Below are positions 715-55,134 of a stretch of DNA of 56,741 nt, piece after piece. Every line of letters starts with the position of its first letter. Within the stretch, counting starts at the first letter, position 1. The notes beneath the pieces are model-generated. The model ran no database searches. It saw only the letters and a program-made list of their open reading frames with translations, and had not been told where the DNA came from. The translations under genes were made by a program, and so were the position numbers. The stretch comes from Phycisphaerales bacterium (GTDB taxonomy: Bacteria > Planctomycetota > Phycisphaerae > Phycisphaerales > SM1A02), in contig SIAB01000002.1 of NCBI GenBank assembly GCA_009692015.1, positions 1 to 56,741 of the forward strand, in the 5' to 3' direction.

Positions 715-743
715 TTGATTGTGAGACTGAGTCTCAATACCAT
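715..743 (+). promoter_or_regulatory. putative feoA promoter: -35 TTGATT (715-720), 17-nt spacer, -10 TACCAT (738-743)
   Basis: Sigma70-like hexamers flank the Fur-like dyad; -10 ends 6 nt before the feoA ATG. Confidence 0.5.
722..736. promoter_or_regulatory. Fur-like operator (7-1-7 inverted repeat TGAGACT-G-AGTCTCA)
   Basis: Perfect 7-1-7 dyad, 13 nt upstream of feoA; iron-uptake context. Confidence 0.7.
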
Positions 744-749
744 CCCCCG

Positions 750-1010
750 ATGGCAAAGAGCCCGCTGAAAATACCACTCACTCAACTTGGTCGCGGTCAG
801 CGCGCGACCGTTGAATGCTCGGCACTCGATGCCCTGCCAAGCGAACATCGCTGCCTGCTCGCCGCGATGGGGCTCGGTGAGAAATGCGAGGTTCGTGTCT
901 GCCGAGCGGGTACTCCGTGCATCATTCAGATCGATCAGACCCGACTCGGTCTTCCGCGAGACATCGCCGAGCGAATCATGGTGACCCCACTCGAGCCCAA
1001 CGGATCGTGA
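750..1010 (+). CDS. feoA: FeoA family ferrous iron transport protein
   Basis: MAKSPLKIPLTQLGRGQRATVECSAL...AAMGLGEKCEVRVCRAG...ARRIM-type FeoA core; directly upstream of feoB with a GTGA overlap. Confidence 0.85.
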   Translation: MAKSPLKIPLTQLGRGQRATVECSALDALPSEHRCLLAAMGLGEKCEVRVCRAGTPCIIQIDQTRLGLPRDIAERIMVTPLEPNGS

Positions 1011-2962
1011 CGCCGCGCATCGCACTGCTGGGGAATCCCAACACTGGGAAGAGCACTCTCTTCAATCGACTCTGCGGCATGCGAACCAAGACCGCAAATT
1101 TCCCGGGCAGCACGGTGGCGCATCAAGTCGGCCGTTGCATCACGAAGACTGGACAGGAGTTCGATCTGATCGACTTGCCTGGGATTTACAGTTTGCTTCT
1201 GGAACTGCCCGAGAGCAGACTCTGTTCGGAGTGTCTTGAGGGACGAATCGGTGATGGTCGACCCGACGGAGCGCTGGTCGTTCTCGATGCCAACAATCTC
1301 ACCCGCAACTTGCAGTTCGCGGCCAGTGCCCTGCGCCGTGGACTTCCAACGGTGATCGCCATCAACATGGCAGACCTTGCAGAGCGCCGTGGTCTGGTCA
1401 TCGATGAACACGCCGCCTCGGAGGTGCTTGGTGTTCCGGTCATCGCGACCTCCGCACGAACTGGCCAGGGGATGGATCGGCTGCTCGACGCGTTGACGAA
1501 GACCGCCTTGCAGTCGCGCGTTCCAAAGCCACCGCAACCCTATCCAGCAACAGAGCCGGGGTCGACCACGAGCGCCCTCTGGGCGGCGGAGACCTTTTCA
1601 CAAATTGCCGCGCATCCTGCGCGAACCGACAGTGCGGAGATGACGATTCACGACCGACTCGACGCGGCGTTCACGCATCCGCTGCTGGGGATCCTCTGCT
1701 TTGCCTTCATGATGGCCCTGCTCTTTGCCTCGATTTACTGGCTGGCACAGTTTCCGATGGATGCGGTGGACTCGATCTTCGCGTGGGTCGGGAGCGCGGT
1801 CGCGGCGGCGATCCCGGCGGGCACTTTGCAAGACTTGCTGGTGAATGGAATCGTCGGTGGCGTCTCGGCGACGGTCGTCTTTCTGCCACAGATCGTGCTG
1901 CTCTTTTTCCTGCTCGCACTTCTTGAAGACTCGGGATATCTGGCACGCGCCGCCTTCGCCGTCGATCGCACCATGCGCCGATTTGGTTTGCCCGGGCAAG
2001 CGTTCATGCCGCTCCTCTCATCCCATGCCTGCGCGTTGCCAGGAATCATGGCCACGCGGTTGATTCCAGATCAACGCGATCGGCTCGCCACGATCTTCAT
2101 TGCACCATTCATGAGTTGCAGCGCGCGCGTTCCTGTGTACGCACTCCTGACTGGCATCTTGTTTGCGGGAAGACCACTTGCAGCTGGAATGGCTTTCACC
2201 GCCTGCTATCTGCTGGGAGCGTTGGCAGGACTCGCAACCGCCGCACTCCTGCGCAAGACAATTCTGCGCGGACCGACCGCCCCGATGATGCTCGAACTTC
2301 CCGACTATCGGCTCCCGAGCGTTCCTGCAGCGTTCAAGATTGCCGTCGACCGTGGACTCATCTTTCTCAAGAATGCCGGGAGCGTCATTCTCGCCATCGC
2401 CATCGTCATGTGGTGGCTCAGCGCGTATCCAAAGTCGCCGAGCAGTGCCGAATGCGCGAGCCTCGAAGCGCGCGCTGTCGAAGTACAGGTCGCTGATCCA
2501 GAGGCCGCGGAAGCGTTGCGAGCGCAAGCATCGCGCATCGACGAGAGGGAACAGCAGGCGGGTTCCTTCGCTGGGCAACTCGGAGGGTTGTTCGAGCCTG
2601 CCTTCGCGCCCATTGGGCTTGATCGCCAACTCACGGTCGCGGTGCTCACGAGTTTTCTGGCTCGCGAGGTCTTCACGACCACAGTCTTCGTGCTCACCGG
2701 CGCTGGTCACGACGCGGACGGTGAAGATTCTGGCACGCTTGAGAGGGTCCGCACCGCAACCCGCGATGGCGGGCTCCCACTCTTCACACTGCCAACCTCG
2801 GCTTCGCTCTTGGTTTTCTTCGTTCTCGCCATGCAGTGCCTGCCGACCCTGGTTGTTGTCGCCCGGGAGACCGGCTCGTGGAAGTGGGCCGTGATGCAGT
2901 TCGTGTACATGACCGCTGTCGCATACGGCGCAGCATTCCTCACCTATCGTCTGATGACATGA
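1007..2962 (+). CDS. feoB: ferrous iron transport protein B
   Basis: G-protein motif GNPNTGKSTLFNRL, DLPGIYSL, followed by FeoB membrane domain (FLPQIVLLFFLLALLEDSGYLARAAFAVDRTMRRFGLPGQAFMPLLSSHACALPGIMATR). Confidence 0.95.
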   Translation: MTPRIALLGNPNTGKSTLFNRLCGMRTKTANFPGSTVAHQVGRCITKTGQEFDLIDLPGIYSLLLELPESRLCSECLEGRIGDGRPDGALVVLDANNLTRNLQFAASALRRGLPTVIAINMADLAERRGLVIDEHAASEVLGVPVIATSARTGQGMDRLLDALTKTALQSRVPKPPQPYPATEPGSTTSALWAAETFSQIAAHPARTDSAEMTIHDRLDAAFTHPLLGILCFAFMMALLFASIYWLAQFPMDAVDSIFAWVGSAVAAAIPAGTLQDLLVNGIVGGVSATVVFLPQIVLLFFLLALLEDSGYLARAAFAVDRTMRRFGLPGQAFMPLLSSHACALPGIMATRLIPDQRDRLATIFIAPFMSCSARVPVYALLTGILFAGRPLAAGMAFTACYLLGALAGLATAALLRKTILRGPTAPMMLELPDYRLPSVPAAFKIAVDRGLIFLKNAGSVILAIAIVMWWLSAYPKSPSSAECASLEARAVEVQVADPEAAEALRAQASRIDEREQQAGSFAGQLGGLFEPAFAPIGLDRQLTVAVLTSFLAREVFTTTVFVLTGAGHDADGEDSGTLERVRTATRDGGLPLFTLPTSASLLVFFVLAMQCLPTLVVVARETGSWKWAVMQFVYMTAVAYGAAFLTYRLMT

Positions 2963-3165
2963 ATTCGTTTCCCATCGATGACTGGCAATTCTGGGTCGCG
3001 ACAGCGATCGTCATCACCGCGCTTTGGTTTGTGGTTCGTCCTTTCATTCCGAGCCAGCGCGCGCGCGCCGCCTGCCCGAATTGCCCATCGAAGAGCGCGA
3101 GCGCTTTACCTCCGAGCCGCCGCGCCGAATTGACCATGGAAGGCAGCAAGATTCGCACCCCCTGA
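2959..3165 (+). CDS. small FeoB-associated membrane protein with CPNC motif
   Basis: ATGA overlap with feoB; one TM helix followed by RAACPNCPSK. Confidence 0.55.
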   Translation: MNSFPIDDWQFWVATAIVITALWFVVRPFIPSQRARAACPNCPSKSASALPPSRRAELTMEGSKIRTP

Positions 3166-3182
3166 TCCACGGCGGGCTGCTG

Positions 3183-3974
3183 TCAGAACCGCTTGTGAAC
3201 AGGTCGCTGTTCGGGTGGACGATGTCCCAGAATCGCTCGGACAATCGCCAGGTCCGCTGTGGTTGTGACCTTGATGTTTCGTGGATCCCCATCGACCACC
3301 AGCACGGGTTCCCCGAGACGCTCAACCAGCATCGCATCGTCCGTCGCGCCGGTGAGATCGGGTTGCGCATACGCGCGGCGAAGAAGTTCTGCAGCAAATA
3401 TCTGCGGCGTCTGAATCGCCATCAAGCGGGTGCGATCCACTGTGGCTTCCACCCGGCGACCACGAACCGCATCGCGACCAGCATCGCCGAGGATGGCATC
3501 CGCGACTGCGTCATCTGGAGCCGCGAGAAATGTCTCCGCGCTCACCCGTTTGAGGGTTGAATGAACTGGATCGCCCGGGACAACCGCCGCCGCGACCTTG
3601 GCGGCATCGAACACACGAGTCAGAAGTGCGTCTGTTGTTCCGGGTCGCGCGGCATCATGCACGGCGATATGCGTGCAATCTTCCGGCACGGCTGCGAGGG
3701 CGTTCTGAACACTTTCCCAGCGCTCGCTGCGTCCGCCGGCAACGATGACCACGCCATGGAATCCGAGCTGCGCTCCATAGCGCGACCGAAACTCATCGAG
3801 TGCGTCGGGTGGCGCTGCCACGATGATCGACCCGACCTCTTCGCGCTTGGTGAAGAGTTCGACGGTGCGCAGCAGCAGCGGCCGTCCCCCGAGGTCTTGC
3901 CCCAGTTTATCGCCACCAAATCGAGTGCCCGCTCCCGCGGCTGGAATGATGACCGCCACTTTGAAATCGCTCAT
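3183..3974 (-). CDS. ispD: 2-C-methyl-D-erythritol 4-phosphate cytidylyltransferase
   Basis: [48 protein letters not shown] motifs of IspD. Confidence 0.93.
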
Positions 3975-5863
3975 GGAATCCTCTCCCTGTGTTGGGTCGA
4001 CATACCCCGCAAACTGCGGGCAATCGACTGTTCGTGCATCGAAACGCTGGCGCGATCGAGCGCTTCTTTGGCGGCGTGGAATGCGTCAGCGTCAACATCC
4101 TGGGGTGTGGCGCGGGCACGCTCAATCATTTCCTGCAGTTTCGTGATCAGTTCCGCGAGCGACTGGACATAGGCAGGCGCCAGATCGCTTCTGGTGCGAT
4201 CAAGTGCCTCGCTGATCCACTTGATGTCCAGCGCCGCATTCACGGCGAGGTCAACCACGCGGTGGTGATGCATATCCGCGCGCGCATGGGTGACGCTCTC
4301 GCGCTCCATTCGATCGACCTCATCTGGAGTGAGACCAAAGGAGGGCACCACTTGCACAACGGCGCGGCAGCCACTGCGGCGCTCACCTGCGGTGACCTGA
4401 AGCACGCCATTGGCATCGACCAGAAACTCCACTTCAATTTGGGGTATGCCCGCCGGCATCGGAGGAATACCGCGCAGTTCGAATCGCGCCAGCGATCGGC
4501 AATCCGCGACCATCTCGCGCTCGCCCTGCAGCACATGGACCTTCACATTGGTTTGATTGTCAACGCTGGTCGAAAACATTTCGCGAGCCCGCGCTGGGAT
4601 CGACGCGTTGCGGGTGAGCAACTTGGCAACGGCACCGCCAACTGTTTCGATCCCCAGTGAGAGTGGAATGACATCGAGCAAGAGCACATCGCGGCGAGTG
4701 CCTTGCAGTACGGCTGCTTGGGTCGCCGCACCAAGTGCGACCACGCAGTCCGGGTCAAGCGCCGTGTAGGGATCGAGCCCGAAGAATTCGCCAACCCGCG
4801 CCCGCACCAGTGGAATTCGCGTGGATCCTCCGACCAGAATAACGCGATCGATCGCCACCTTGCTCGCATCGCCCATCGCCCTTTCGCAGGCCGCGATCGT
4901 GCGATCAACCCACGGGATCGCGATCGATTCAAACTCTTCGCGGGTCACGGACCGCTTGAGGCGGATTCCATCGCCGAGATCCAAATCAACATCGACGCGA
5001 TCGCGCTCTGAGAGTGCGACCTTGGTCGCCTGCGCAAACTCGCGCAGTGCCTGACGCGTCGCGGGGGTGAGGCTGTCCATGGCACGATCGCCAGTCGACC
5101 CGCACCCAGCACTTCGCAGCAAGTGCTCGGCGAGCGCGCGATCGAGATCGTCGCCGCCAAGATGAGTGTCGCCCGCCGTGGCAATCACCCGAAAGAGAAT
5201 TCCATCACCCGCGCGCTCTTCCGGAATGACCTGCAGGATCGAGATGTCGAAAGTTCCGCCGCCGAAGTCGTAGACCGCAATCGTCTCTGCCACGCCCGTG
5301 CGTCCGATTCCATAGGCGAGCGCGGCGGCGGTCGGCTCATTCACGATGCGCACGGGATCGAGCCCCGCGAGTCGCGCTGCATCGCGCGTGGCCTGCCGTT
5401 GACCGTCATCAAAGTATGCCGGCACAGTGATGACGGCGCGTTGCACGGTGCAACCGAGTTGCGCCTCGGCCCTCTGACGAAGCTCAGCGAGAATCACGGC
5501 GGCGACCTCTTGTGGCAGAATGGTCGCGCCCTCGGATCCAATAGCTGCCAGCCCGCGCGGACCCGCCACGACTTCGAATTGCAGCCCATCAGCCATGCCC
5601 TGCGACTCTGCGAATGAGCGCCCCATCAAGCGCTTGGCACTGAAGACTGTTTCGCGAGGGAAATTGACTGCGGAACGAACTGCCTCAAAGCCAACAGCGA
5701 CGGGCTGTCCCGCGAGAAATCGAACAACCGAGGGCAACATTCGCTCGCCCGACGCACTCGCCAGGATTCGCGGACCCGCCTCATCGCAGAATGCCACAAG
5801 CGAATTGGTTGTTCCAAGATCTATTCCAACGATCGGATCTGGGTTCACTGCTGTGTCGGACAT
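3971..5863 (-). CDS. Hsp70 family chaperone (DnaK/HscA-like)
   Basis: [66 protein letters not shown]. Confidence 0.93.
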
Positions 5864-5875
5864 CCGACAACGATT

Positions 5876-6502
5876 CTAGGGAGCAACAGTTGCGCCCGTT
5901 GATCGCGCGCTCGGCGAATTCCTGCCGACCCGCACATGGTCGGCCGCTCGGTGGGTCAGGACCTCTCTCAGTTTCTCGAGTCCGCGATGGCGCCGCACTC
6001 CGAAGCAGTCTTCGGTACACCCAAACGCACGGCCACTCTCGTGGCGACGGAGGTTCTCAGAGCAGAGCGCGCGCATGACCTCCTGTTGGTGCGGCGGCAG
6101 TCGGTCGATCGCGTCGTTGAGTTGCGCAGAGTCAAACTGTGGTTCCTCGCAGTGGGCGGGGTCGCTGCCACGCTTTGTCCCTTCGGATGAGTCGATCGCG
6201 CCACGATCTGTGGCACGATTCCTCAACAGCCGGTGGTGCTCGTCATCCACGAGCGTGCGAATGACGCGCTTACGAACGCAGTGCACGAGATATGCCGGGC
6301 GCAGCATGATTTCCCGCGTGACCGACGAGGAGGGGGCGCGCACGAGCCAGCGCGTGAAGAGCTCCTGCACCGCATCCTCAATCGCTTGCATCGGATAGCG
6401 ACGGCGCAAGAGATTCACGATGAGTTCTCGGTGCTCTCGGTATGCGGTTTCGAGTCGTCGACCCCACTGCTCGTCGGCGGCATCACGATGACTTTCTGTC
6501 AT
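5876..6502 (-). CDS. ECF-like RNA polymerase sigma factor (region 4 apparently double-frameshifted)
   Basis: Region 2-like AIEDAVQELFTRWLVRAP...LRPAYLVHCVRKRVIRTLVDDEHH; region 4 LPPHQQEVMRAL...LEKLREVL; strong SD AGGAGG before ATG. Confidence 0.7.
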   Translation of the reverse strand: MTESHRDAADEQWGRRLETAYREHRELIVNLLRRRYPMQAIEDAVQELFTRWLVRAPSSSVTREIMLRPAYLVHCVRKRVIRTLVDDEHHRLLRNRATDRGAIDSSEGTKRGSDPAHCEEPQFDSAQLNDAIDRLPPHQQEVMRALCSENLRRHESGRAFGCTEDCFGVRRHRGLEKLREVLTHRAADHVRVGRNSPSARSTGATVAP

Positions 6503-6587
6503 TGAAGCCTCCTGAAAATAAGTTGCGTGGACGATATGCCACCTCGAACCGCACGCCGAAAATGAACGCTGTTTTTCTGTGACGGCG

Positions 6588-6615
6588 ACTTATGCACCGA
6601 CCGTGCACCAGTCAA
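6588..6615 (-). promoter_or_regulatory. putative promoter of ECF-like sigma gene with inverted repeat in spacer
   Basis: Minus strand TTGACT - 16 nt - ATAAGT; spacer contains TGCAC-CGACC-GTGCA (plus-strand 6593-6607). Confidence 0.35.
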
Positions 6616-6655
6616 TCGCAATTCCATCCCGTCTCCGTCGATCGCCTCGCCCCGC

Positions 6656-7144
6656 CTACCTCGGTTGCTCCCCCGCCTCGGGCAGTCGATCGAGCACCTG
6701 CTGAAACCGAACATCAGCAATCTTGACCAAGTAATCGGTCACCGCCACAACAGTCGGGTTCTCCCCGGGCAGGACGAATTGTTGCCGCACGCTCGTTCCC
6801 GAAACCGCGATGTCGGCGCAGGGCGCACCCTTCTCGCAGCCACCCGCTGGCGGATTCTCGGCCAGCCAGCCCCCCTCCTCTGCGAACTTCACGATCACGG
6901 CGCACTGCTGGGGCGAGAGATCGGTCTGCCAACTGGTCTTGAGATTGAGAGCATCGCGACCACCGCCGTATGCGAAGGTGCCATCCTCCACTGTGAAGTA
7001 CTGATACTGCGCAGTCATAGGCGCGCGCAACCAGATGACCAGGGCGATCTCACACGCTCCGGGCTTCCCCATATGGGTTGGAAGGGTGTTGCACGATCCA
7101 CACAGCATCGCCAAGGCCAAGCTGAGCGAACGAAACCAGATCAC
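6656..7144 (-). CDS. hypothetical lipoprotein
   Basis: Signal peptide plus lipobox-like LAMLCGSC; paralogous to the upstream gene. Confidence 0.55.
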   Translation of the reverse strand: MIWFRSLSLALAMLCGSCNTLPTHMGKPGACEIALVIWLRAPMTAQYQYFTVEDGTFAYGGGRDALNLKTSWQTDLSPQQCAVIVKFAEEGGWLAENPPAGGCEKGAPCADIAVSGTSVRQQFVLPGENPTVVAVTDYLVKIADVRFQQVLDRLPEAGEQPR

Positions 7145-7794
7145 TGCGCGGCACTCGTCGCGGGCGGCGATGAAAATGGCGGAGCTTTTTCAAATCCGTC
7201 GTAGGGATTGGGACCGAAGTCATAGCGATGGGGAAGATTTCGGTCTGGGCCGCGATCCGTTGCCCAGGCGAGGTCGCACAAGCTGCGCACCAGGGCGACC
7301 GCCTTGGGATCCGGAATATCGGAGGTCTTGAATCTGCGTACAAACCACCAGTCGGTGCCCTCGGCGTGAAAGAACAAGATGTACACAACTTCGTCATGGG
7401 CGGGTTGAACTGAACCGGGCCAGACATCCACGCTTGACTTGGCGGGATCGATCCATCCTGCGTCCACTGCCAGATGCCAAAGTCCATCAACCTGTCGTTG
7501 GTAAAGCCAGCGCGTCGTCGCTGGTCTGGTGAGAAATGTGAGACTGTCTCCGTAATCACTATGCAGGCTGCCATCACTCAGAAGTGTGAACTTGCCTTGG
7601 CGGGCGTGGGCCTGCGGCAAATCCTTCGCTGCGCTGCCGGTGAGGATGGTGACATCGATTGAGAGATCCGCCGGGGTCGGTGCAGTTTGAATCTTGGCCG
7701 TGCGAACATCGGTGCATCCCACAACAACCAATGGACCCATCGTCGCCAGTGTCCCAAGTGAAAGTTGAGCGATCCTTCGCCACCTGCCAATCAT
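7141..7794 (-). CDS. hypothetical lipoprotein
   Basis: Signal peptide plus VVVGC lipobox; overlaps the paralogous downstream gene by 4 nt. Confidence 0.6.
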   Translation of the reverse strand: MIGRWRRIAQLSLGTLATMGPLVVVGCTDVRTAKIQTAPTPADLSIDVTILTGSAAKDLPQAHARQGKFTLLSDGSLHSDYGDSLTFLTRPATTRWLYQRQVDGLWHLAVDAGWIDPAKSSVDVWPGSVQPAHDEVVYILFFHAEGTDWWFVRRFKTSDIPDPKAVALVRSLCDLAWATDRGPDRNLPHRYDFGPNPYDGFEKAPPFSSPPATSAAQ

Positions 7795-7838
7795 GCGCGC
7801 AGCCTAGCACGGCGTGGGGTTGGGTAGTCTTGCGATGC

Positions 7839-9890
7839 ATGCGAACGAGTGCGAATTGGATCAACGACTACCTCTCGGCACCCGCGACGGCCGAGGTGCA
7901 AGCGACGCTCTTCACTTCGGTTGGTTTTCCATGTGAGTCTTCCCAGAAGCTGCCAGGCGGCGACTTCGTCCAGGAGGTCGAAACCACGAGTAATCGCGGG
8001 GATTGCCTGTCGCATCTCGGACTGGCCCGCGAGATCGCAGCGGCGAGCGACCGCACGATGCGGATGCCCACCATCAACGCGCCGCGCTGCGGGTCAGCGG
8101 CGACAACTGTCATTTCGGTTTCGAATCACGAACCCCTGCGCTGTTCGCGATACACCGCGCGGGTCGTGCAAGGCATTCGCGTCGCGCCGAGCCCGCCCTG
8201 GCTGCAGGAACGGCTCCGCGCGATCGGCCAAGTCCCGCGAAACAATGTGGTGGACTGCACGAACTTTGTCCTCTTTGAATATGGCCAACCCACCCATGTC
8301 TTTGATCTTGCGACGCTTCAGGGCGGCGCGATTCAGGTTCGCAGCGCGGTTGCTGGCGAGGAGTTCTTGCCAATTGGCGAGGGGGCACAACCAGTCAAAC
8401 TCGCCGGCGGCGAATTGGTAATCGCCGACGCATCGCGCCCAATTGCTCTTGCTGGTGTGAAGGGCGGCGCGCAGACAGCCATCTCCGACAAGACGACGGA
8501 TGTTGTCATCGAAGCGGCCGCATTCGATCCGAGCGCGGTTCGGCTGACCAGCCGAAGCCTGCGAATTTCAAGTGATTCGAGTTTTCGGTTCGAGCGTGGT
8601 GTGCACCCCGCTGAGGTGGACGAAGCAGCTGAGCGGCTCGTCTCGCTCATTCTCGAAACCGCAGGAGGAAGGGCGCTCGCCGGGTCTGCCACCGCCGGTC
8701 CCCCGCTCCCGCCGATCGCGCGCGTGTCGCTGCGACTCGAGCGCCTTGAGGCGATTGCTGGATTTACGATTCCCACCACTGAGGTGCTGCAGATTCTCTC
8801 GGCGCTCGGCTTCGAACCAAAGCGGATCGGCGCGCAAATCGATTGCACGGTCCCACCGCGAAGAATGGATGTCACCCGCGAGATCGACCTCATCGAAGAA
8901 GTTGTTCGACTTGCAGGTTTCGATCGCATTCCGATGGTCGATCGGGTGAGCATCCGTCCTGTTGATTCGCAACCTGCGGTGGGCGCAGTGCGACACGCCA
9001 AGAATTGCCTAGTGGGACTTGGGTTTGTCGAGGTTGTCAGCCCGACGCTCGTATCACAACGGGCTGCTGCTCCGTTCTTGGATGCTCCATTCACCGCACT
9101 TCGCATCGAGGACGAGCGGGCAGTCGGCGAGCCGATTCTTCGCCCCTCTCTGCTTGCAACGCTGCTTCAGACGCTCAAACTGAATCAGGACAGAGGGACG
9201 CGCGCGCTGCGACTCTTTGAGCATGCCGCCGCATTCTGGCTTGGCCCCGAGGGTCACCATGAAGAACGGATGATCGCACTCTTGGTCGCAGAACCGGGTG
9301 ATGCCGAGACGCTCTATCGACTCTGCCGCGGATCAGTCGAGCGGTTGGGCCGCGAAATCTGCGGGCGCCACGCTGCCATTTCCATCGCCCCCTCGGTGGC
9401 CGCCGATACGAATGCGCGCGCTTCCCAGGCGCTCGATCCGGTTGGATGCATCCGCGTGGATTCGATCGTCGTGGGCGTGATTGGTTTGATCAATGCCAAG
9501 ACGCTCGCATCTGCTGGTCTCGAAGGACCGATTGCTGCGGCTGAACTCAATTGGGAGCGCCTGGCCAGCTCGTACCCGCCGACTCCCCGCGCGCCGCAGT
9601 TGCTCAACAGTCCGCTGCTTGACCGCGATCTCTCGCTGACCGTCGCAGAGTCGGTCCCGTGGGCGCAGGTCGAAGCGACCGTTCGCGAGGCGGCGCTGCC
9701 TGATCTCGAATCCATTTCGTTTCTGGGAACTTTTCGAGGAAAGCAGACCGGCGCAGATCGCAAGTCCGTCACACTGCGACTGACCTTTCGCGCCGCGGAT
9801 CGAACGCTCAAGCGGGAAGAGGTTGAGCCGCACATCGCTCGGCTCAACGCGCTCTTCACCAGCAGACTCAGCGCGGAGATTCGAACATGA
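7839..9890 (+). CDS. pheT: phenylalanine--tRNA ligase beta subunit (no EMAP-II-like tRNA-binding domain seen)
   Basis: N-term MRTSANWINDYL, B3/B4 and B5 domains, C-terminal FDX-ACB domain; the upstream part of the 743-aa ORF is rejected. Confidence 0.92.
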   Translation: MRTSANWINDYLSAPATAEVQATLFTSVGFPCESSQKLPGGDFVQEVETTSNRGDCLSHLGLAREIAAASDRTMRMPTINAPRCGSAATTVISVSNHEPLRCSRYTARVVQGIRVAPSPPWLQERLRAIGQVPRNNVVDCTNFVLFEYGQPTHVFDLATLQGGAIQVRSAVAGEEFLPIGEGAQPVKLAGGELVIADASRPIALAGVKGGAQTAISDKTTDVVIEAAAFDPSAVRLTSRSLRISSDSSFRFERGVHPAEVDEAAERLVSLILETAGGRALAGSATAGPPLPPIARVSLRLERLEAIAGFTIPTTEVLQILSALGFEPKRIGAQIDCTVPPRRMDVTREIDLIEEVVRLAGFDRIPMVDRVSIRPVDSQPAVGAVRHAKNCLVGLGFVEVVSPTLVSQRAAAPFLDAPFTALRIEDERAVGEPILRPSLLATLLQTLKLNQDRGTRALRLFEHAAAFWLGPEGHHEERMIALLVAEPGDAETLYRLCRGSVERLGREICGRHAAISIAPSVAADTNARASQALDPVGCIRVDSIVVGVIGLINAKTLASAGLEGPIAAAELNWERLASSYPPTPRAPQLLNSPLLDRDLSLTVAESVPWAQVEATVREAALPDLESISFLGTFRGKQTGADRKSVTLRLTFRAADRTLKREEVEPHIARLNALFTSRLSAEIRT

Positions 9891-10495: not shown

Positions 10496-10509
10496 CGGAG
10501 CGCGCGCCG

Positions 10510-16708: not shown

Positions 16709-16719
16709 CGGATGATCGT

Positions 16720-18045: not shown

Positions 18046-18109
18046 CTGCCAGATCCCACCATTGCCGCGCCCACCCACTGCCCGACCGGTCGCTCTATTC
18101 TGGGGGCAC

Positions 18110-18871
18110 ATGACGCTTCGCGTTGTCATCATCGGAACGGGAAGCGCGCTCTCGACGCGCCACTTTGGATCGAGCGCGGTCATCGTGAGCGGGAGCTCGC
18201 CGATCCTCATCGATTGCCCCGACTCGGTGCTGCGAGCACTCGCGCAGGGATCGCAATCGTCTGGCGTCACGATCGATCCACTCTGCATCCAAGACATTCT
18301 GATCACCCACTTGCACGGCGACCATGCCAACGGACTTGAGGCGATGGGATGGCTTCATTGGATCGCCAGACAGGGAACACGCGCCGCGGATTCGCGAGGA
18401 GCGCCGCGAATCCACGCCATCGCCCCGGTCGCTGCGAGATTGTGGGAGAGGCTGGCGCCAGCGATGGATCAGAACGGAAGCGCGACGCTCGCGGATTACT
18501 TTTCAGTGAAGATCATCGATCCGAGCACACCCGCGATCGTGGCTGGACTGCAGGTCGAAGTGCGACCTGCCGAACACCTCATTCCAGGATGTGGCTTTCG
18601 AATCTCGCAAGGCGGTGCCACGCTGGGTTGGAGCGGTGACACGCGGTTCGATCCTGCTCATATCGATTGGCTTTCATCTGCCGACTTGATCGTGCACGAG
18701 ACGACCGAGTCTCGAGTTCATACCCCCATCGCCTGCTTGAACGCGCTTGCCCCGGCTCTGCGGCGCAAGATGCGGCTCATCCACATGGAAGATCTGTTCG
18801 ATCAGGCCGTGACCGACATCGCAGCGCTGCACGAGGGCGAAGTGCTCGAGGTTTCCGGCACCCCACGCTGA
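18110..18871 (+). CDS. metallo-beta-lactamase-fold hydrolase (RNase Z-like)
   Basis: THLHGDHANG, HLIPGCGFRI, GWSGDTRF, HETT. Confidence 0.88.
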   Translation: MTLRVVIIGTGSALSTRHFGSSAVIVSGSSPILIDCPDSVLRALAQGSQSSGVTIDPLCIQDILITHLHGDHANGLEAMGWLHWIARQGTRAADSRGAPRIHAIAPVAARLWERLAPAMDQNGSATLADYFSVKIIDPSTPAIVAGLQVEVRPAEHLIPGCGFRISQGGATLGWSGDTRFDPAHIDWLSSADLIVHETTESRVHTPIACLNALAPALRRKMRLIHMEDLFDQAVTDIAALHEGEVLEVSGTPR

Positions 18872-20001: not shown

Positions 20002-20009
20002 AAAACTCC

Positions 20010-20016
20010 TATCCTA
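20010..20016. promoter_or_regulatory. overlapping divergent -10-like elements (TATCCT on +, TAGGAT on -)
   Basis: 25-bp intergenic between gltA (-) and rhomboid (+); spacing to starts 11 and 9 nt. Confidence 0.4.
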
Positions 20017-20026
20017 GGGGTGCAAG

Positions 20027-21813: not shown

Positions 21814-26159
<4,346 letters not shown>

Positions 26160-28568: not shown

Positions 28569-28613
28569 CGCCTCGTCATCCTAGGGTCATTTGATTCTGT
28601 AGGATGCGTTGCT

Positions 28614-33949: not shown

Positions 33950-34141
33950 ACGGGATTGCCAATTTTTGATCCGGGCGCTCGAAATGCGAGGGTCCACTTT
34001 GAACCCAAGTTGACCCGCGGCGAGGCAATCGCCACGATCGATCGTGGGCTCCGCGCACCACCACCACAAGATGATGGGCAGCGCCGTGGCGAGATAACTT
34101 GAGCGACGGATCCCAAGAAACTGCGTAGAATCTTTTCGAGA

Positions 34142-39612: not shown

Positions 39613-39702
39613 TTTCGGTAATCGTAGTGAACCGCCACCATTTGACCGATATACTTTGTCCTGTCGTTTTCGATCTTCACACTTTTATCAGGAGTCTCAA
39701 TT

Positions 39703-40068: not shown

Positions 40069-40147
40069 CGTGGCGCTGCCGCTTGGCATAGCCAGGCTGC
40101 GGCTGACACTTCGCAGTTGAATTGCGATTCGCTACTATTGAATTGTC

Positions 40148-42887: not shown

Positions 42888-42908
42888 TCGCCACGACTTT
42901 GGACGCAT

Positions 42909-47027: not shown

Positions 47028-47902
47028 GCCACCACCTGAGCGCAATCCCGGGCAATCTGGGCAATCAGCACTTCCGTGGAATCGAATCGCATCATTCCAC
47101 GTAGCCAGCGGTGAAAGAAAATCGAAATGGGTTGGCCGTACATGTCGCTGTCGTGTGGCATCTGAAGGATATGAACCTCAAGGGTACGCGGGCAGTCACC
47201 GAATGTCGGATTCGAGCCCAGGCTTGCGGCTCCCTTGAATAGTCGTCCCTGCGCATCTTCGACACCAACCGCATAAATGCCATCGGCGGGCAGGACCACA
47301 TCGCAGTGGGCAACATTGGCAGTTGGATAGCCAAGCTCGCGACCCCGCCGTTGCCCAGCAACGACCCTCCCTGTCACGCGGTGCGGACGACCCAGCACCC
47401 GGCTCGCATCCGCCACGCGCCCCTGTGCGAGGAGCCAGCGAACCATCGAGCTGCGCGCCGAAACCAAGGTGCCATCCTGCAGAGCGACATCAACTTCCTT
47501 GGCGACAACGGTCCTGAACTTTTCGCGCTCGCCGATCGCTCGCAAGGTGTTCACATCACCGCGGCGACCACGACCAAAGCGAAAGTCCGCCCCCTCGACA
47601 ACGGTTGTGATGCTGAACTTGGTCTTCAAGAACGCCACAAACTCCTCAGGCGTCAATCGCAGCAGCGCCTCGGTTGTTTCGAGCGACTCCACGCGGCTCA
47701 CTCCCGCGGCGATCAACAATTTCTCGCGCTCTGCGTTGCTCGTCAATCGGGGGGGTGCATCGTTGCGCGTCAGGGTCGCGGGGTGGGTGTCGAATGTCAC
47801 CGCCACCACTTCACTTGCGGGCGAAATTTCGCGCGCGCAGCCAATAAGTCCTTGATGTCCAAGATGGACTCCATCGAAATTTCCAATAATGAGGGTTGCC
47901 AT
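47024..47902 (-). CDS. ribF: bifunctional riboflavin kinase/FAD synthetase
   Basis: IIGNFDGVHLGHQ, VEGADFRFGRGRRGD, GRELGYPTANV, LEVHIL. Confidence 0.92.
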   Translation of the reverse strand: MATLIIGNFDGVHLGHQGLIGCAREISPASEVVAVTFDTHPATLTRNDAPPRLTSNAEREKLLIAAGVSRVESLETTEALLRLTPEEFVAFLKTKFSITTVVEGADFRFGRGRRGDVNTLRAIGEREKFRTVVAKEVDVALQDGTLVSARSSMVRWLLAQGRVADASRVLGRPHRVTGRVVAGQRRGRELGYPTANVAHCDVVLPADGIYAVGVEDAQGRLFKGAASLGSNPTFGDCPRTLEVHILQMPHDSDMYGQPISIFFHRWLRGMMRFDSTEVLIAQIARDCAQVVA

Positions 47903-47949
47903 GCTTGCTTTCGGACACCTCGACTGCGCCGAGCGGGTAGTTTTACGGG

Positions 47950-50904
47950 ATGACCTCCATGCGATCAACCGGCGCCAGCGGCCAGAGCTCAGTTACCGAG
48001 GGACTGCTCGAGGAGCTCTCCGCCGAGTTTCGTGCCACGGCCTCCGAAGTCGTGCCGTGGTTTCTCGAAAACATGCCCACGATGTACTTCCAAGACACGA
48101 CGCACGATGCCCAGCGCGAGCATCTTCGATCGATCCTTGCTGCCCGTGCCTCGGGACGGCCGGTCGATGTGATGCTCAAGGGCACGGACGGCAACTCGAT
48201 CACTGCGATTCGTGGCGGGAATCGCCCCGGCGTTCTCGCGGACATCGTTCGGGATCTTCCGATGGATGCATCGCTGCGTGCCGCCAAAATCCACACTTCG
48301 AAGGATGGTTCGATCGTGATCGATACTTTCGAGTTTGGCGAGCAGGAACCCTTTGATCCAGCAAACCCAGCGCAGGCCAGCGCGGCCGAGGCGGCATTGG
48401 AATACGCCCGTCGCGATCAGCCGGGAATCTCCGCCGACGATATGCGCCGGTTTCTTTCGGGATTCTCGGCGCGGAACTTGCTGACCCTGACCCCCCTGCG
48501 GATCTGCCGTCACTTCGAGCTCTTTCGCAAGATTACTGGCACGGACCGGCCGATCGTGGGGCTCGAGCCCGAGTCCGATCCCTCCATGAGCCGGATCACG
48601 ATTGCCATCTCGAATGCACGAACCAGAACGACGCTCGAGCGAGCAGCGCGCATGCTCACCCGTCACGGCATCAGCATTACCCGCGCGCACATGGATGTCG
48701 TCCAAGATGCTCCGCACGGCTCGGTGACCATCATTGGATTCATCGCCCAGTGGACCGATCGCAAGCCGATTCGATCAACCGACCCGCGCTGGGCGACCGT
48801 CGAGAATGAACTGCTGCGAACAAAGTGGCTTGACTTCCGCGCCATCGATTTGCTGGTTCGTCGCCCCGAGTTCACCCTCATCGAAGGGGAACTCATCGGC
48901 GCTTTCGCCGATCTGATTCGGCACATGCTTGTTCCGACCGATCCGCTGGCCTTCAGTCGCGACCGCGTGACGGCGGCGCTGGAGGGTCGCGTGGGACTGA
49001 CGCGCCCCATCCTCGAACTCTTTACCGCGCGTTTCAATCCAGAGAATCCGCTCTCCGACATGGCCTACGAGTCGCAGGCCGCCGCGCTCGCGGTACAAAT
49101 CACCGGACTCACAGACACCGACGACGCTGCCGCAGTTTTTGGCGCGTTCCTGCAAGCCGTGCGCGCCGTGCGCCGAACGAACTTCTATGTCCCGGGGCGA
49201 TTCTCCTTCGCCGTGCGGCTCGATCCCGCACTTTTGGTCGGACCCACGCGACCCGAAACGCCCTTTGGCGTTTTCTTTGTGAACGGCCGGGGATTTCATG
49301 GATTCCATGTCCGTTTCAAGGAGATCGCCCGCGGCGGCCTGCGCGTGGTCAAGCCTGCCAGCGCCATCCTCTTCGAGCGCGAATCGGAACGGCTCTTCGA
49401 TGAGGTGTATGCCCTGGCGTTCGCCCAACAACTCAAGAACAAAGACATCCCCGAGGGCGGTGCGAAGGCGGCGATCGTGCTCGAACCACCAGCTGAAACC
49501 AATCGATGCGTGAAGGCATTCGTGGATGGCATCCTCGACCTCATCACCCCTGATCCAGCCACCCGCGCGCGCGTGGTCGATCGTCTCGGTCGCGATGAGT
49601 TCATCTTCCTCGGACCAGACGAGAACATCACCCCGATGCATATCGAATGGATCGTCTCGCATGCCGCTGCCCGCAAGTACCCACTTGCGAACGCCTTTAT
49701 GAGCTCGAAGCCAAACGGCGGCATCAATCACAAGGAGTATGGCGTCACCAGTGAGGGAGTGAATGTCTTTCTTCGCATTGCCCTGCTCGCCCAAGGGATC
49801 GACCCAACCAAGCAGCGCTTCACCGTCAAGATCACTGGCGGTCCAGATGGCGATGTGGCAGGCAACATGATGTGCATTCTGCACCGCGACTACGGCGCGC
49901 ATGCCTGCATCGTTGGTGTTGCTGACGGCAGTGGCGTGGGCGAGGATCCAGAAGGGCTTGATCACGCCGAACTTCAGCGACTCTTCCACGCTGGGCTGGC
50001 GATGAGCCACTTCAATCCCAAGTGCCTCTCTGCGAAGGGACGCATCGTCAAGGCAGACACACCAGCCGGGGTTCAGTTGCGCAACTCGCTGCACAATCGA
50101 CTGGCGACCGATGCATTCATCCCAGGCGGCGGAAGACCGGCGACGATCAACGATCGCAATTGGAGAGACTTCCTGCTTCCAAACGGCAAGCCATCGAGTC
50201 CCTTGATCGTTGAGGGAGCGAATCTCTTTCTCACCCCCGAGGCGCGGGTGGAACTCGCCAAGGTCGGCACACTGATCATCAAGGATTCCAGCGCAAACAA
50301 GTGCGGCGTGATGTGCTCCAGCTTTGAGATCGCCGAGAGCATGCTGCTGAATGAAGAGCAGTTCCTGAAGATCAAGCCGCAGTTTGTGGCCCAGGTCTTG
50401 GAGAAATTGCGCGACGCGGCCCGCCAAGAGGCAGTGATCCTGCTCGCCGAGGGGCGGCGCCACCCGTCGATTCCGCTTCCAGAATTATCGACGCGACTTT
50501 CACGGGCAATCAATGCCGCGGCCGATGCGATTCAACCTGCGGTTTCGAGTTGGAAAAGCGCGCACCCTGAACTCTTCCGCGCAGTCATTCTGCATCACCT
50601 GCCGGCTGCCTTGACAGCGGCTGTCTCGGAGCGAATTTTCAAGGAACTCCCTGCTCCGTATCTCGAGTGGGTTGTGGCAAAGGGCGTTGCGAGCCGAATC
50701 GTCTACCGCGAAGGGATCGACTTCTTTGCAACGATGGATGGGAGCGCGATCGCCCAGATTTCTCTGGAATACCTGCTGAAGGAACGCGACATTCAAGCTC
50801 TAATCAGCGAGGTGCGGGCGAGCAAACTGCCACATAGCGAACGGATCGCGGCACTCTTGGAACGCGCTGGAACCCGGGCGGCACTTCTGGAGGGTGAGAC
50901 ATGA
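47950..50904 (+). CDS. NAD-specific glutamate dehydrogenase (large type)
   Basis: FKEIARGGLRVV, KNKDIPEGGAKAAIVL, GGPDGDVAGNMM, PLIVEGANLFLTPEAR. Confidence 0.88.
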   Translation: MTSMRSTGASGQSSVTEGLLEELSAEFRATASEVVPWFLENMPTMYFQDTTHDAQREHLRSILAARASGRPVDVMLKGTDGNSITAIRGGNRPGVLADIVRDLPMDASLRAAKIHTSKDGSIVIDTFEFGEQEPFDPANPAQASAAEAALEYARRDQPGISADDMRRFLSGFSARNLLTLTPLRICRHFELFRKITGTDRPIVGLEPESDPSMSRITIAISNARTRTTLERAARMLTRHGISITRAHMDVVQDAPHGSVTIIGFIAQWTDRKPIRSTDPRWATVENELLRTKWLDFRAIDLLVRRPEFTLIEGELIGAFADLIRHMLVPTDPLAFSRDRVTAALEGRVGLTRPILELFTARFNPENPLSDMAYESQAAALAVQITGLTDTDDAAAVFGAFLQAVRAVRRTNFYVPGRFSFAVRLDPALLVGPTRPETPFGVFFVNGRGFHGFHVRFKEIARGGLRVVKPASAILFERESERLFDEVYALAFAQQLKNKDIPEGGAKAAIVLEPPAETNRCVKAFVDGILDLITPDPATRARVVDRLGRDEFIFLGPDENITPMHIEWIVSHAAARKYPLANAFMSSKPNGGINHKEYGVTSEGVNVFLRIALLAQGIDPTKQRFTVKITGGPDGDVAGNMMCILHRDYGAHACIVGVADGSGVGEDPEGLDHAELQRLFHAGLAMSHFNPKCLSAKGRIVKADTPAGVQLRNSLHNRLATDAFIPGGGRPATINDRNWRDFLLPNGKPSSPLIVEGANLFLTPEARVELAKVGTLIIKDSSANKCGVMCSSFEIAESMLLNEEQFLKIKPQFVAQVLEKLRDAARQEAVILLAEGRRHPSIPLPELSTRLSRAINAAADAIQPAVSSWKSAHPELFRAVILHHLPAALTAAVSERIFKELPAPYLEWVVAKGVASRIVYREGIDFFATMDGSAIAQISLEYLLKERDIQALISEVRASKLPHSERIAALLERAGTRAALLEGET

Positions 50905-52661
50905 AGCGATACTTTGCAGCACTTGTCGTCGTCTGGATTGGACTCGCACCACTGGCTCAGGCGCAAGACACTGACGCCGGGGTCGATCCAAACATTCCCC
51001 AAGAGCGGATGATGAACACCAAGATCGAGTCGGTGGTGCTCTACCAAGGTCGCGCCGCAATCACCCGAACTGAAAGGGCATCGTTCACCCCTGGACTCTG
51101 GAAACTTCGCTTCGACAATCTGCCGGCGACCATTCAGTCCGACACGCTCGAAGCCAAGAGCAGCGCGGGACGAATCCTTTCAGTCGACTTCTTCTCCCGT
51201 CCGGTGCCCGACGCAGCATCCACTCCCGAGGCCGTGGCGATCGACGGAGAGATTCGTCGAATCACCCAAGACCTCGCGGCAGCGGCAGACCAACTCGCCG
51301 GCTTCCAGAGCGAGATCAAGGTCGTTGAATCGGTCGGGGTTCGAACCGGGACCGATGCCACGAAAGACGCCGGCACGACGAAATTGGATCTGGCGAGCCT
51401 CGACGCGCAACTCACTTGGATGGCGGCACAGCGGGCGCGCATCTTTGCTTCGAGCCGAACGGCCAATGAACGAATCGAACTCCTCAACAAGGACCTGCGT
51501 GCAGCACAACAGAGGCGCAGTGCCATCGGCGGTCAAGGCAGCACCATTCAGTTCGCAGAAGTATTGCTGGCCATGACGACCGATGAGAGCATCGACATTC
51601 GATTGTCCTATCTCGTGACCGATGCGAGTTGGGAGCCGGTCTATGCCCTGCGCGCCGCGCCGGATCGCGGATCGATGGGCATCGAATTCGATGCGCTCGT
51701 TGTTCAGAGTTCAGGCGAGGATTGGAAGGGTGTGCGACTCTCTCTCTCGACGGCGCGGCCATCACGGGCCGCGAATCCAGGTGCGGTCAAGCCCTGGTTC
51801 GTGAATGTCTTTGTGCCGATGGACCGGGCTCGATCCGCGGGCGAGTTAGCGCCTGCGCTCTATGTCACAGCCGCCCCCGCAAGCGAGGCCATGGACAAGG
51901 TTGGATTTGAGGCGGAGCGGGCTGATGCTGAGGTCGCCTTGGGCGAGAAGCGAAAGTCGCTTGCCAAAGAATTGAGCGGAGATGCCGTCGTCGGTGGAAC
52001 CGGTCCCAGCGTGACATACACCATCGCACTCCCCTTCGATGCAGAGAGCGACAGTCAGGTTCGCCGCCGGGCGCGCATCGCATCGTTTGAGGCTCCAGCA
52101 AAGTTCGCCTATCAAGTGCAACCCGTCGCGAGCGATGGGGCCTTTCTGCGCGCCACGCTGAAGAACACGAGTGCGTTTCAATTGCTGCCTGGAAGGGCAT
52201 CGGTGTTTGTTGGATCGGACTATGTCGGCGCGTCGCCCTTTCTTGGCGCGGCACCGAATCAGGAATTTGCGGCATTCTTCGGCGCGGATCCGGCGATCTC
52301 TGCCCGCCGCGAACTCGTGCAGCGCGCCGATCGTCAGTCTGGGCTCTTTGGGGGAGGACTCGACACCTTGAGTGATTACCGCGTCACGATTTCCAACGGC
52401 ACGGGCCGGTCTGTCCTCGTCGAACTTTTCGATCGCCGTCCAGTCAGTCGAAGCGATAAGGTCGAAGTGACGGTTCCGAACAACAGCGCCCCGCTCTCGA
52501 CCAATGCGGATTATGTAGCGACACAACTGCCGCAGGGAATTCTGCGCTGGGATCTGGCGATCGCCCCGACTCCGACGGGCAGTGATGGCACCACCATCAC
52601 TTGGACCGTGGTGGTCAGCCGATCCAAAGATATTGAAATCACGCCGCTTCCGGCCGAGTAA
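50901..52661 (+). CDS. exported DUF4139 / mucoidy-inhibitor MuiA-like protein
   Basis: Signal peptide; IESVVLYQGRAAITRTERASFTPGLWKLRFDNLP; DVRLSYLVTDASWEPVYALRA-type pattern. Confidence 0.78.
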   Translation: MKRYFAALVVVWIGLAPLAQAQDTDAGVDPNIPQERMMNTKIESVVLYQGRAAITRTERASFTPGLWKLRFDNLPATIQSDTLEAKSSAGRILSVDFFSRPVPDAASTPEAVAIDGEIRRITQDLAAAADQLAGFQSEIKVVESVGVRTGTDATKDAGTTKLDLASLDAQLTWMAAQRARIFASSRTANERIELLNKDLRAAQQRRSAIGGQGSTIQFAEVLLAMTTDESIDIRLSYLVTDASWEPVYALRAAPDRGSMGIEFDALVVQSSGEDWKGVRLSLSTARPSRAANPGAVKPWFVNVFVPMDRARSAGELAPALYVTAAPASEAMDKVGFEAERADAEVALGEKRKSLAKELSGDAVVGGTGPSVTYTIALPFDAESDSQVRRRARIASFEAPAKFAYQVQPVASDGAFLRATLKNTSAFQLLPGRASVFVGSDYVGASPFLGAAPNQEFAAFFGADPAISARRELVQRADRQSGLFGGGLDTLSDYRVTISNGTGRSVLVELFDRRPVSRSDKVEVTVPNNSAPLSTNADYVATQLPQGILRWDLAIAPTPTGSDGTTITWTVVVSRSKDIEITPLPAE

Positions 52662-53654
52662 TCAGGTCCACCACGGTTTCGCCGGCGGCTCTGCGATAAT
52701 CGCCTCTTTGAGAAAGCGAACCGCGCGACGGAATCCCTCGTCGACACTCAGCAGCGCATCTTCGTGCTCGATCGAAAGCACATGGTCGTACCCCTGACGG
52801 CGGAGCATCGACACGAATGGCTTCCAGAATTCATACCCGTGACCATCGCCACAGGTTCTAAAGTTCCATGAACGCGAATTCAGGGCGCCGTACGGTCGGG
52901 CATCGAGATATCCGTTGCGCGGTCCCTCGTGGCGGTCGAGTTCTGTGTCCTTGGCGTGCACATAGAAGAGAAGACCGGCTTCACCGAGCATCTGCGCGCT
53001 GAGAATGGGATCAATCCCCTGCCAGAAAAAGTGCGAGGGATCGAGATTCGCGCCCAGAATCGGCTTGCCCTTGATCCCCGACGCCGCCATGGCGCGCTGC
53101 GAAAGTTCGATGATGGTCGCCGGGTTGTAGGCACAGAATCCTGGATGCCCCTCCCACGCTGTGCGAACTCCATGCTTCTTGCAGAGTTTCGCTTGCGCCG
53201 ACCAATAGGGCACCAGCACTTGTTCCCATTGATAGCGAAGGATTTCGCTGAAGTCATTGGGCCAGGGACAGGTCACCCAGTTTGGAGTCTTGTCGCCTTT
53301 GGAACCACCTGGGCAACCCGAAAAAGTAATGACGATGTCTGTTCCAAGTTTCGGTGCCAACTTGACCGCCGCGACATACGCGTCGTGATGAATCCGCGCC
53401 AGCGCGCGATCGGGATGAACAGGATTGCCGTGCACGGCGAGAGCGGAAAGTTCGAGCCCGTGATCCTTCAAGAGCGACTTGATTCGCGCCTGCTGGCGAC
53501 GATCTGCGAGCACACGCGATGGCTCAAAGAATGGCTTCCCGGGGTATCCACCCACTGGAAGTTCGATCGCCCCGAGTCCCTGCTCGGCACAAACCCGCAC
53601 AACTTCTTCCAGTGTGCGCCCTGAAAAGAGTGCGGACATCAAGCCAAGTTTCAT
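52662..53654 (-). CDS. sugar phosphate isomerase/epimerase (xylose-isomerase-like TIM barrel)
   Basis: LGLMSALFSGRTLEEVVRVCAEQGLGAIEL; LGANLDPSHFFWQGIDP; HAKDTE; LSIEHED. Confidence 0.87.
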   Translation of the reverse strand: MKLGLMSALFSGRTLEEVVRVCAEQGLGAIELPVGGYPGKPFFEPSRVLADRRQQARIKSLLKDHGLELSALAVHGNPVHPDRALARIHHDAYVAAVKLAPKLGTDIVITFSGCPGGSKGDKTPNWVTCPWPNDFSEILRYQWEQVLVPYWSAQAKLCKKHGVRTAWEGHPGFCAYNPATIIELSQRAMAASGIKGKPILGANLDPSHFFWQGIDPILSAQMLGEAGLLFYVHAKDTELDRHEGPRNGYLDARPYGALNSRSWNFRTCGDGHGYEFWKPFVSMLRRQGYDHVLSIEHEDALLSVDEGFRRAVRFLKEAIIAEPPAKPWWT

Positions 53655-53691
53655 AATGAGCTGAGGCTATCTCGTAGACTCGATGCTGGAA

Positions 53692-55134
53692 ATGCCCACC
53701 CCTTCGAGCCGAGTCTCCAGAGTCCTAGTCACCCTCCTTGGGGCCATGGTCGTCGCCGCTCTTTTCGGCGCCTTCACCGCCGATGATCCACCTGCTTTGC
53801 CACCCCAGGGTGCGCCAGCCGCGGCTCCAGAAGCGGCAAAGGCCCGCCGCGTGCACCTCCTGATCAATCGCAAGGATGAGGCTGGCGGCGTGGTTGTCTA
53901 CGAAGACGAAAAGCAGATCTCAATCGAGCGGGAGGGCAAGCGCCGCGACTTCCAGAAGGATGACCTGCTCGACATCATTCAACTGCTCGATGTGACAATC
54001 CCGACGCAGGCGGTTGTTTTTCGCCGCGACGGGAGCTCCATTCAAGTCTCTCTACTCGCCGATGATTTCGATGCCGTGCGATACGCCGTCGGCCGGTCAC
54101 AGCGGACGATCCCCCGTGCCGAGGTTTATCGCGTTGGTCTGGTGCGGACATTCGAGGAACGATTGCGGGCGCTAAAGGAATCCATCCACCCCGACGACAT
54201 GGCGCGACGACTCGCGCTGTGCGACTGGCTGATGAGCGAGCGCAAGTACACCGAGGCGCGCGCGGAACTGCTGCCGCTGGTGGCTGATTCCAAACTCCCA
54301 GAGGCGGTCGCGCTCCTCGCCCGAGCGGACGCGCAGCTCGCGCTGATGGCGGCCAAGAAGCCACAAGGTGGTGACGCGTCGGGAAAGACACCCGAGACCG
54401 AATCGCCGCCAGACGCGCGCCCCCTGCCAACGCGACTGCTCACCGCTGCCGAAGTCAACCTCATCCGTGTCTACGAAATCGATTTCGACAATCCACCGCG
54501 GGTCATCATCGAGCCGAGCGACGCGCGGGCCCTCTTTGAAGAGTTCAGCGCGAGCCCACGGGTGCCCCCTGACGCTGCGGGGCGCAATGCCATGCTCGAG
54601 GGGGATCCGATGCAAATTGTTCGACTCGCCTTTGAACTCAAGGCGCGCAATTTCTATCCAAAGATTCGGGTCACCAGCGAGCCAGCGACGCTGGTGAAGT
54701 ACCGCGGAGCCGTTCATGACGGATGGCTCCTTGCCAACTGCGCGACGAGTCGCTGCCACGGCGGAGCCGATGCTGGAAAGTTTTTTCTGTCGAATGGTGA
54801 GCGCAGCGATGAACGGGTGCGGTACACCAACCTCCTCAACCTGCTGCTTGGAAGTTCGCAGGACCTCCCGCTGGTCAACTTTTCCGACCCCAACCGATCG
54901 ATACTCGTCCAGTATGCGCTTCCAACTGACGAGGCTGAGATTCCCCATCCCGCGGTGAAGGGTTGGAAGCCGGTCTTTGGGCGCAAACTTGCTCCTGAGA
55001 AGTTGCGCGCGACGCTGCAATGGATTGCTTCGATGTATCAACCAAGACCGATCTACCCCATCGACTACCAACCGCCCGATCTGCGAGCACCGCAGCCAGG
55101 CACTCCGGGGGACTCCCAGGAACCAACCCGTTAG
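53692..55134 (+). CDS. exported hypothetical protein with CATSRCH (CX4CH) motif
   Basis: Signal-anchor-like N-term; LANCATSRCHGGADAGKFFLSNG; start could alternatively be the in-frame ATG at 53683. Confidence 0.65.
   Translation: MPTPSSRVSRVLVTLLGAMVVAALFGAFTADDPPALPPQGAPAAAPEAAKARRVHLLINRKDEAGGVVVYEDEKQISIEREGKRRDFQKDDLLDIIQLLDVTIPTQAVVFRRDGSSIQVSLLADDFDAVRYAVGRSQRTIPRAEVYRVGLVRTFEERLRALKESIHPDDMARRLALCDWLMSERKYTEARAELLPLVADSKLPEAVALLARADAQLALMAAKKPQGGDASGKTPETESPPDARPLPTRLLTAAEVNLIRVYEIDFDNPPRVIIEPSDARALFEEFSASPRVPPDAAGRNAMLEGDPMQIVRLAFELKARNFYPKIRVTSEPATLVKYRGAVHDGWLLANCATSRCHGGADAGKFFLSNGERSDERVRYTNLLNLLLGSSQDLPLVNFSDPNRSILVQYALPTDEAEIPHPAVKGWKPVFGRKLAPEKLRATLQWIASMYQPRPIYPIDYQPPDLRAPQPGTPGDSQEPTR

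Follow-up and report, generated by a model that had tools for sequence, protein, structure and literature searches.

The window analyzed here is a 56,741-nt contig (C32) of a Phycisphaerales-like Planctomycetota metagenome-assembled genome (MAG, labelled G000). It carries, among others, feoA, an HscA-like hsp70 gene, pheT, gltA, a rhomboid gene, eno, uvrC, pyrC, and a GDH gene, each preceded by a hexamer of the form TAnnnT that ends 6 to 11 nt before the start codon. An earlier note on this DNA had listed 17 such hexamers and read them as -10 promoter elements of leaderless mRNAs; 16 of them are TAnnnT in the window sequence, with the sequence and spacing given there, while the 17th, GATATT at spacing 9 from an RdgC-like gene, is present yet is no TAnnnT. 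To place the window in its genome, we analyzed 1,743,582 of the 1,744,059 bases of the MAG (1.744 Mb in 98 contigs, 86% complete) with a gene finder that picks starts by coding potential and a start-codon prior and is blind to upstream sequence, which gave 1443 genes and 90% coding DNA.

Genome-wide, TAnnnT was found 6-11 nt before the start of 154 of the 665 genes that come first in a transcription unit (23.2%), compared with 19.9 ± 4.2 in 200 dinucleotide shuffles (z 31.9); the comparison with shuffled sequence that the earlier note had proposed thus returned a strong enrichment. Among 64 XYnnnZ patterns, TAnnnT was the most enriched (6.9-fold, with the runner-up at 1.7-fold). The 6-11 range stands for the genome as a whole, with the correction that the dominant spacing is exactly 6, which alone accounts for 61 unit-first genes against 3.5 ± 1.9 in the shuffles. 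With the motif-blind gene starts, spacings of 0-5 are nearly empty and the distribution peaks at 6, as expected if the A of the ATG is position +1 of the transcript. The peak is also present without any gene calls, since TAnnnT-Nk-ATG occurs 38 times at k=5, 182 times at k=6, and 134 times at k=7, then 85 and 89 times, and about 54 times at k=12-15, whereas 150 kb of E. coli K-12 have no such peak (48 at k=6 and 29-65 at other spacings). As in known leaderless genes, the hexamer is centered about 12 bp upstream of the start, above background.

The promoter anatomy was resolved with an expectation-maximization (EM) mixture of three classes, namely no signal, -10, and Shine-Dalgarno (SD), in which the starts were left free. 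In the -10 class, spacing is distributed as 6 (39%), 7 (20%), 8 (10%), 9 (16%), 10 (8%), and 11 (5%), and the position weight matrix (PWM) of the hexamer reads T A [G/C] n [C/A] T, with GC before it and a pyrimidine after it. The first, second, and sixth positions are conserved at 0.93, 0.98, and 0.99, as in the -10 element of sigma-70 promoters. The dinucleotide GC at positions -2 and -1 precedes 64 of 269 hexamers, with about 24 expected (2.7-fold), which resembles the GCTAnnnT of alphaproteobacterial housekeeping promoters. The -35 elements, described previously as mostly weak, proved undetectable genome-wide: between positions -40 and -9, counted from the hexamer, no position carries more than 0.04 bit of information, no TTGACA signal appears at 16-18 bp, and TTG at these spacers is not above baseline, even among genes that have 90 bp or more of space upstream. 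A defective region 4 of the sigma factor was rejected as the cause, as RpoD retains regions 1.2, 2, 3, and 4 and its region 4 is normal. An extended -10 (TGn) was likewise rejected, with TG at -3,-2 in only 20 of 269 cases. Start codons of the leaderless class are ATG (0.82) and GTG (0.18) but not TTG (0.00), in agreement with a purine at +1, and A is depleted at -3 to -1 when the spacing is at least 7 (11% versus 21% in SD genes, p 6e-7), the pattern predicted if the first good initiating purine has to be the A of the ATG.

The leaderless signal is concentrated in unit-first genes, with SD sequences elsewhere. According to the EM model, whose class shares are model-dependent with a motif-blind lower bound of 23% of unit-first genes, the leaderless share is 52% for divergent first genes, 22% for same-strand genes with an upstream gap of at least 60 bp, and 11% for operon-internal genes, 88% of which have an SD. 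The -10 and SD signals co-occur less often than expected (odds ratio 0.43, p 0.004). The proposal of two initiation modes is borne out by these distributions, the SD mode being dominant inside operons. The MAG contains no 16S rRNA gene, so that its anti-SD sequence is not readable.

Conservation was assessed in G108, a genome of the same genus (400-kb sample, 71% mean protein identity), where TAnnnT precedes 26.6% of unit-first genes and the k=6 count is 48 versus about 14. TAnnnT at 6-11 nt is kept in the G108 ortholog for 29 of the 30 leaderless calls whose start was mapped to its equivalent there, and 23 of the 30 keep an identical spacing; the controls gave 3 of 82 non-leaderless genes, and TAnnnT farther upstream is kept in 5 of 21 cases. 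The congener's pyrC has the identical hexamer and an ATG start codon, and the sugar isomerase ortholog has TAnnnT at a similar spacing. Searched against named genomes, the GDH gene matched MAGs named Phycisphaerales (Lake Baikal) and other Planctomycetota at 70-81% identity. Seven named relatives retain its hexamer, 6-nt spacing, and ATG, whereas the DNA upstream has diverged. In other genera of the family (L152-L154), the rhomboid gene has differing TAnnnT hexamers at a common 6-nt spacing. The genome-wide spacings of both G000 and G108 dip at 8 and form a second shoulder at 9-10 nt. The GDH block GGGTAGTTTTACGGGATG (hexamer, spacer, and start; 47935-47952 of the window) is nearly invariant in the seven relatives; as this is tighter than a bare -10 needs, the block is possibly also a regulatory site.

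The genome contains 222 divergent gene pairs, and 72 of them have hexamers on both sides. In a subset the two hexamers overlap or abut at only two offsets, -1 (TAnnnTA, 6 pairs) and +4 (AnnnTAnnnT, 9 pairs), within gaps of 17-27 bp, and no pair has an offset of 0-3 or 5-9; a freer choice of starts raises the counts to 9 and 10 pairs, respectively, with 0-3 for control motifs. If both transcription start sites (TSSs) lie 6 nt from their hexamer, the two offsets would place them 18 and 23 bp apart. In E. coli bidirectional promoters 18 bp is the commonest TSS separation and 23 bp is also common (PMC12825309, PMC10268837), so that the pairs combine overlapping opposite-strand -10s with the geometry described by Warman et al. 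The shortest site, in contig C96, has a 17-bp gap, which is the theoretical minimum for two leaderless genes. The TATCCTA core between gltA and the rhomboid gene is kept in three congeners (L147, L149, and G108). Four shared sites were found in the G108 sample; each has a sequence match among the G000 sites, and orthology of the flanking genes is supported. The A that completes TAnnnTA is present in 3.3% of cases without a close divergent gene and in 22% at divergent gaps below 45 bp (Fisher p 4e-5).

We conclude that the hexamers are very probably the -10 elements of minimal sigma-70 promoters, about six base pairs long and without a detectable -35, predicted to give leaderless or near-leaderless mRNAs. 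The leaderless interpretation of the earlier note is favored by the spacing limit, the gene class, the PWM, the depletion of A, the conservation, and the shared geometry; these, together with the orientation of the hexamers and the absence of a -35, are established by sequence statistics and conservation. RNA polymerase would initiate on the first nucleotide of the start codon (ATG or GTG) or 1-5 nt upstream of it, and the resulting mRNA, leaderless or nearly so, would be translated without a Shine-Dalgarno sequence. About half of the divergent first genes would use this mode, and operon-internal genes would mostly use SD. As the dinucleotide TA reads identically on both strands, overlap of two -10s is possible as TAnnnTA or AnnnTAnnnT, and in 15-19 divergent pairs one shared element is predicted to serve two leaderless genes whose start codons lie 17-27 bp apart. 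We regard as somewhat probable the broader proposition that, in compact freshwater Phycisphaerae, leaderless initiation from -10-only promoters is a main start mode and that 19 candidate divergent pairs are each driven by one symmetric -10 of 7-10 bp, from which two leaderless mRNAs begin at start codons down to 17 bp apart. If true, expression of the two genes of a pair would be mutually exclusive at the level of polymerase binding, and leaderless initiation would be a route to genome streamlining.

Among the other explanations, chance has next to no probability: a hexamer pattern that fixes three bases is frequent in any sequence, intergenic DNA has a higher AT content, and TAnnnT hits could be hand-picked from it, but the shuffle z of 32, the annotation-free peak, the flat E. 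coli profile, and conservation in 29 of 30 cases refute this. It is also very improbable that TAnnnT recruits ribosomes to leadered mRNAs transcribed from promoters farther upstream, in the manner of an AT-rich ribosome-binding site (RBS) of the Bacteroidetes kind or an S1 site, even though it occupies the usual RBS position and non-canonical AT-rich RBSs occur in about 10% of bacterial genomes (PMC9581028). Such an element would have the broad spacing range of an RBS, not a sharp cut-off at 6; the bias towards unit-first and divergent genes is strong, with SD in internal genes; and the conserved T-A-T positions match the contacts of sigma with the -10. In divergent pairs, moreover, a single double-stranded element is read from both strands, something not required of an RNA element, and many of their 17-27 bp gaps have no room for an upstream promoter and a leader. 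A closer competitor, still doubtful, is that transcription starts 6-7 nt after the hexamer throughout, such that genes at spacings 8-11 have leaders of 1-5 nt and only those at 6-7 are strictly leaderless. The shoulder at 9-10 would fit this, whereas the depletion of A at -3 to -1 for spacings of at least 7 favors a TSS at the start codon, and spacing is often conserved (23 of 30) instead of drifting; the two situations may coexist as a mixture. The overlapping divergent -10s might, in turn, be accidental by-products of genome compaction, with one direction used per site, which we consider unlikely. The symmetry of TA makes TAnnnTA cheap, at the price of one extra base, and a steric clash allows one polymerase to be bound at a time (PMC12825309); against this stand the excess of the completing A at divergent gaps below 45 bp, the recurrence of the shared core at matching sites of the congener G108, and the little room that a 17-27 bp gap leaves for another promoter.

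Several points weigh against the interpretation of the hexamers as leaderless and shared -10s. About 11% of the operon-internal genes (gap below 20 bp) fit the leaderless model, 30 of them at a spacing of exactly 6, and these are possibly internal promoters or wrong gene calls. The shoulder at spacings 9-11 could correspond to 3-5 nt leaders or to a TSS farther from the -10. Offsets -1 and +4 are the cheapest in extra bases, and chance would account in part for the lack of other offsets. The shared pattern with an exact 17-bp gap shows no enrichment across the phylum, and the phylum-wide scan gives no support to a wide occurrence of such bidirectional leaderless promoters there. The TSS positions are predicted from sequence, as are the exact start of each transcript, its transcription, and the loading of ribosomes on, and translation of, leaderless mRNA.

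Actinobacterial promoters combine a TAnnnT -10 with a weak -35. Unlike the Deinococcus and Actinobacteria invoked in the earlier note, the organism here is a planctomycete. TANNNT near start codons has been described for leaderless genes of Deinococcus-Thermus (Zhong et al. 2025, PMC12340547) and for TA-led genes (Zheng et al. 2011, PMC3160421). These systems and the present one have in common TANNNT a few bp before the start, a coexisting SD mode, a share of about 20-30% of genes, and a GC-rich TAnnnT form with poorly conserved middle positions; in contrast to them, the Planctomycetota system has no average -35 signal, has GC before and a pyrimidine after the hexamer, and has leaderless pairs that share bidirectional -10s. 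Leaderless and SD modes also occur side by side in Mycobacterium and Streptomyces (PMC3898074), an unrelated lineage. Experiment backs both comparisons, through expression in Deinococcus and mapped TSSs in Mycobacterium and Streptomyces, whereas the present case is known from sequence. The bidirectional promoters of Salmonella and E. coli (Warman et al. 2021, as cited by PMC10268837 and PMC12825309) likewise have symmetric overlapping opposite-strand -10s, and the geometry here is equivalent to their 18- and 23-bp TSS separations. In enterics, one of the two RNAs is often non-coding and leaders are the rule for mRNAs, whereas here both products are predicted to be leaderless coding mRNAs with start codons at the TSSs, so that the whole intergenic region of 17-27 bp would be the promoter.

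Small genomes are reported for lake Phycisphaerae of the Nemodlikiaceae, with intergenic spacers whose median is 43.5 nt (Andrei et al. 2019, PMC6461901). The G000 organism, a member of the Phycisphaerae with a small genome and short spacers, is probably of the same compact freshwater kind. That paper nowhere uses the word promoter, and -10-only promoters offer a mechanism for the short spacers. Planctomycetes had been flagged as a possible leaderless case with low SD use, from one species (PMC5397173). A literature search, with subscription journals mostly outside its coverage, returned no TSS map or promoter study for the group and no case of a single -10 shared by divergent leaderless genes. 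Each of the two features, leaderless genes and bidirectional promoters, is known; what looks new is that they are combined, down to the 17-bp minimum. The analysis provides strong evidence, of several kinds, for systematic leaderless transcription in Planctomycetota, would explain how two promoters fit into an intergenic region of about 20-40 bp, ties streamlining to initiation mode, and yields a list of candidate minimal bidirectional leaderless promoters. Start-site prediction with RBS models will fail for many genes in such genomes.

The breadth of the signal was examined by an annotation-free scan for TASNMTY-N5-ATG against its own N3 control. An excess of N5 over N3 was detected in 45 of 61 genomes of the family at p<1e-4 and in 51 of 61 at p<0.01, and across the phylum in 73 of 236 genomes and 29 of 86 families. 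Several well-sampled Planctomycetota families had no excess, which is weak evidence of absence in AT-rich genomes, where the background is high, as the pattern was tuned on G000. The leaderless signal is thus near-universal in the family and patchy across Planctomycetota. Within the family, the absolute excess is flat with genome size (rho 0.01), and among low-background genomes its density is higher in small genomes (rho -0.67). Scaling of the number of leaderless genes with genome size was therefore rejected, the density alone rising, and the constancy of the exact-6 count suggests that a fixed core gene set uses the leaderless mode.

Table 1. Candidate -10 elements of the window (contig C32) and shared -10 sites in other contigs of G000. 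P, EM probability of the leaderless class.
Element	Position	Strand	Gene and start	Spacing (nt)	P	Remarks
TACCAT	738..743	+	feoA, ATG 750	6		86-aa open reading frame confirmed
TAGAAT	5873..5878	-	HscA-like hsp70, ATG 5863	9	0.92	
TAGGCT	7801..7806	-	lipoprotein, ATG 7794	6	0.99	
TAGTCT	7825..7830	+	pheT, ATG 7839	8	1.00	PheT domains found
TATTCT	18096..18101	+	MBL hydrolase, ATG 18110	8		
TATCCTA	20010..20016	both	gltA and rhomboid			Shared bidirectional heptamer (TAnnnTA); 25-bp intergenic region 20002-20026
TATCCT		+	rhomboid, ATG 20027	11		Part of shared heptamer
TAGGAT		-	gltA, ATG 20001	9		Part of shared heptamer
GATATT	23056..23061	-	RdgC-like			Listed in the earlier note; non-TAnnnT; ambiguous start
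TATCTT	23122..23127	+	eno, ATG 23134	6		Kept in G108
TAGGAT	28578..28583	-	ResB-like, ATG 28568	9		
TAGGAT	28600..28605	+	cyclophilin, ATG 28614	8	0.73	
TAGAAT	34126..34131	+	BamD-like, GTG 34142	10	0.68	
TACGAT	39621..39626	-	uvrC, ATG 39612	8	0.84	
TACTAT	40133..40138	+	pyrC, GTG 40148	9	0.99	
TAGTTT	47938..47943	+	GDH, ATG 47950	6		
TAGCCT	53664..53669	-	sugar isomerase, ATG 53654	9		
TAGACT	53675..53680	+	53692 gene, ATG	11	0.78	
GGGGT-TATGCTA-GGCGC	C96:15537-15553					Shared -10, 17-bp gap
Shared -10	C10:18367-18384					
Shared -10	C28:7015-7036					
Shared -10	C17:11706-11731					
Shared -10	C7:5720-5745					

A scan of viral contigs with FeoB gave no match, nor did a plasmid search. For the RdgC-like gene, the EM model favors a GTG at 22965 with an SD as the start. 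The MBL-fold hydrolase gene (18110-18871) lies on the other strand from gltA and overlaps the gltA 3' end convergently by 70 bp.

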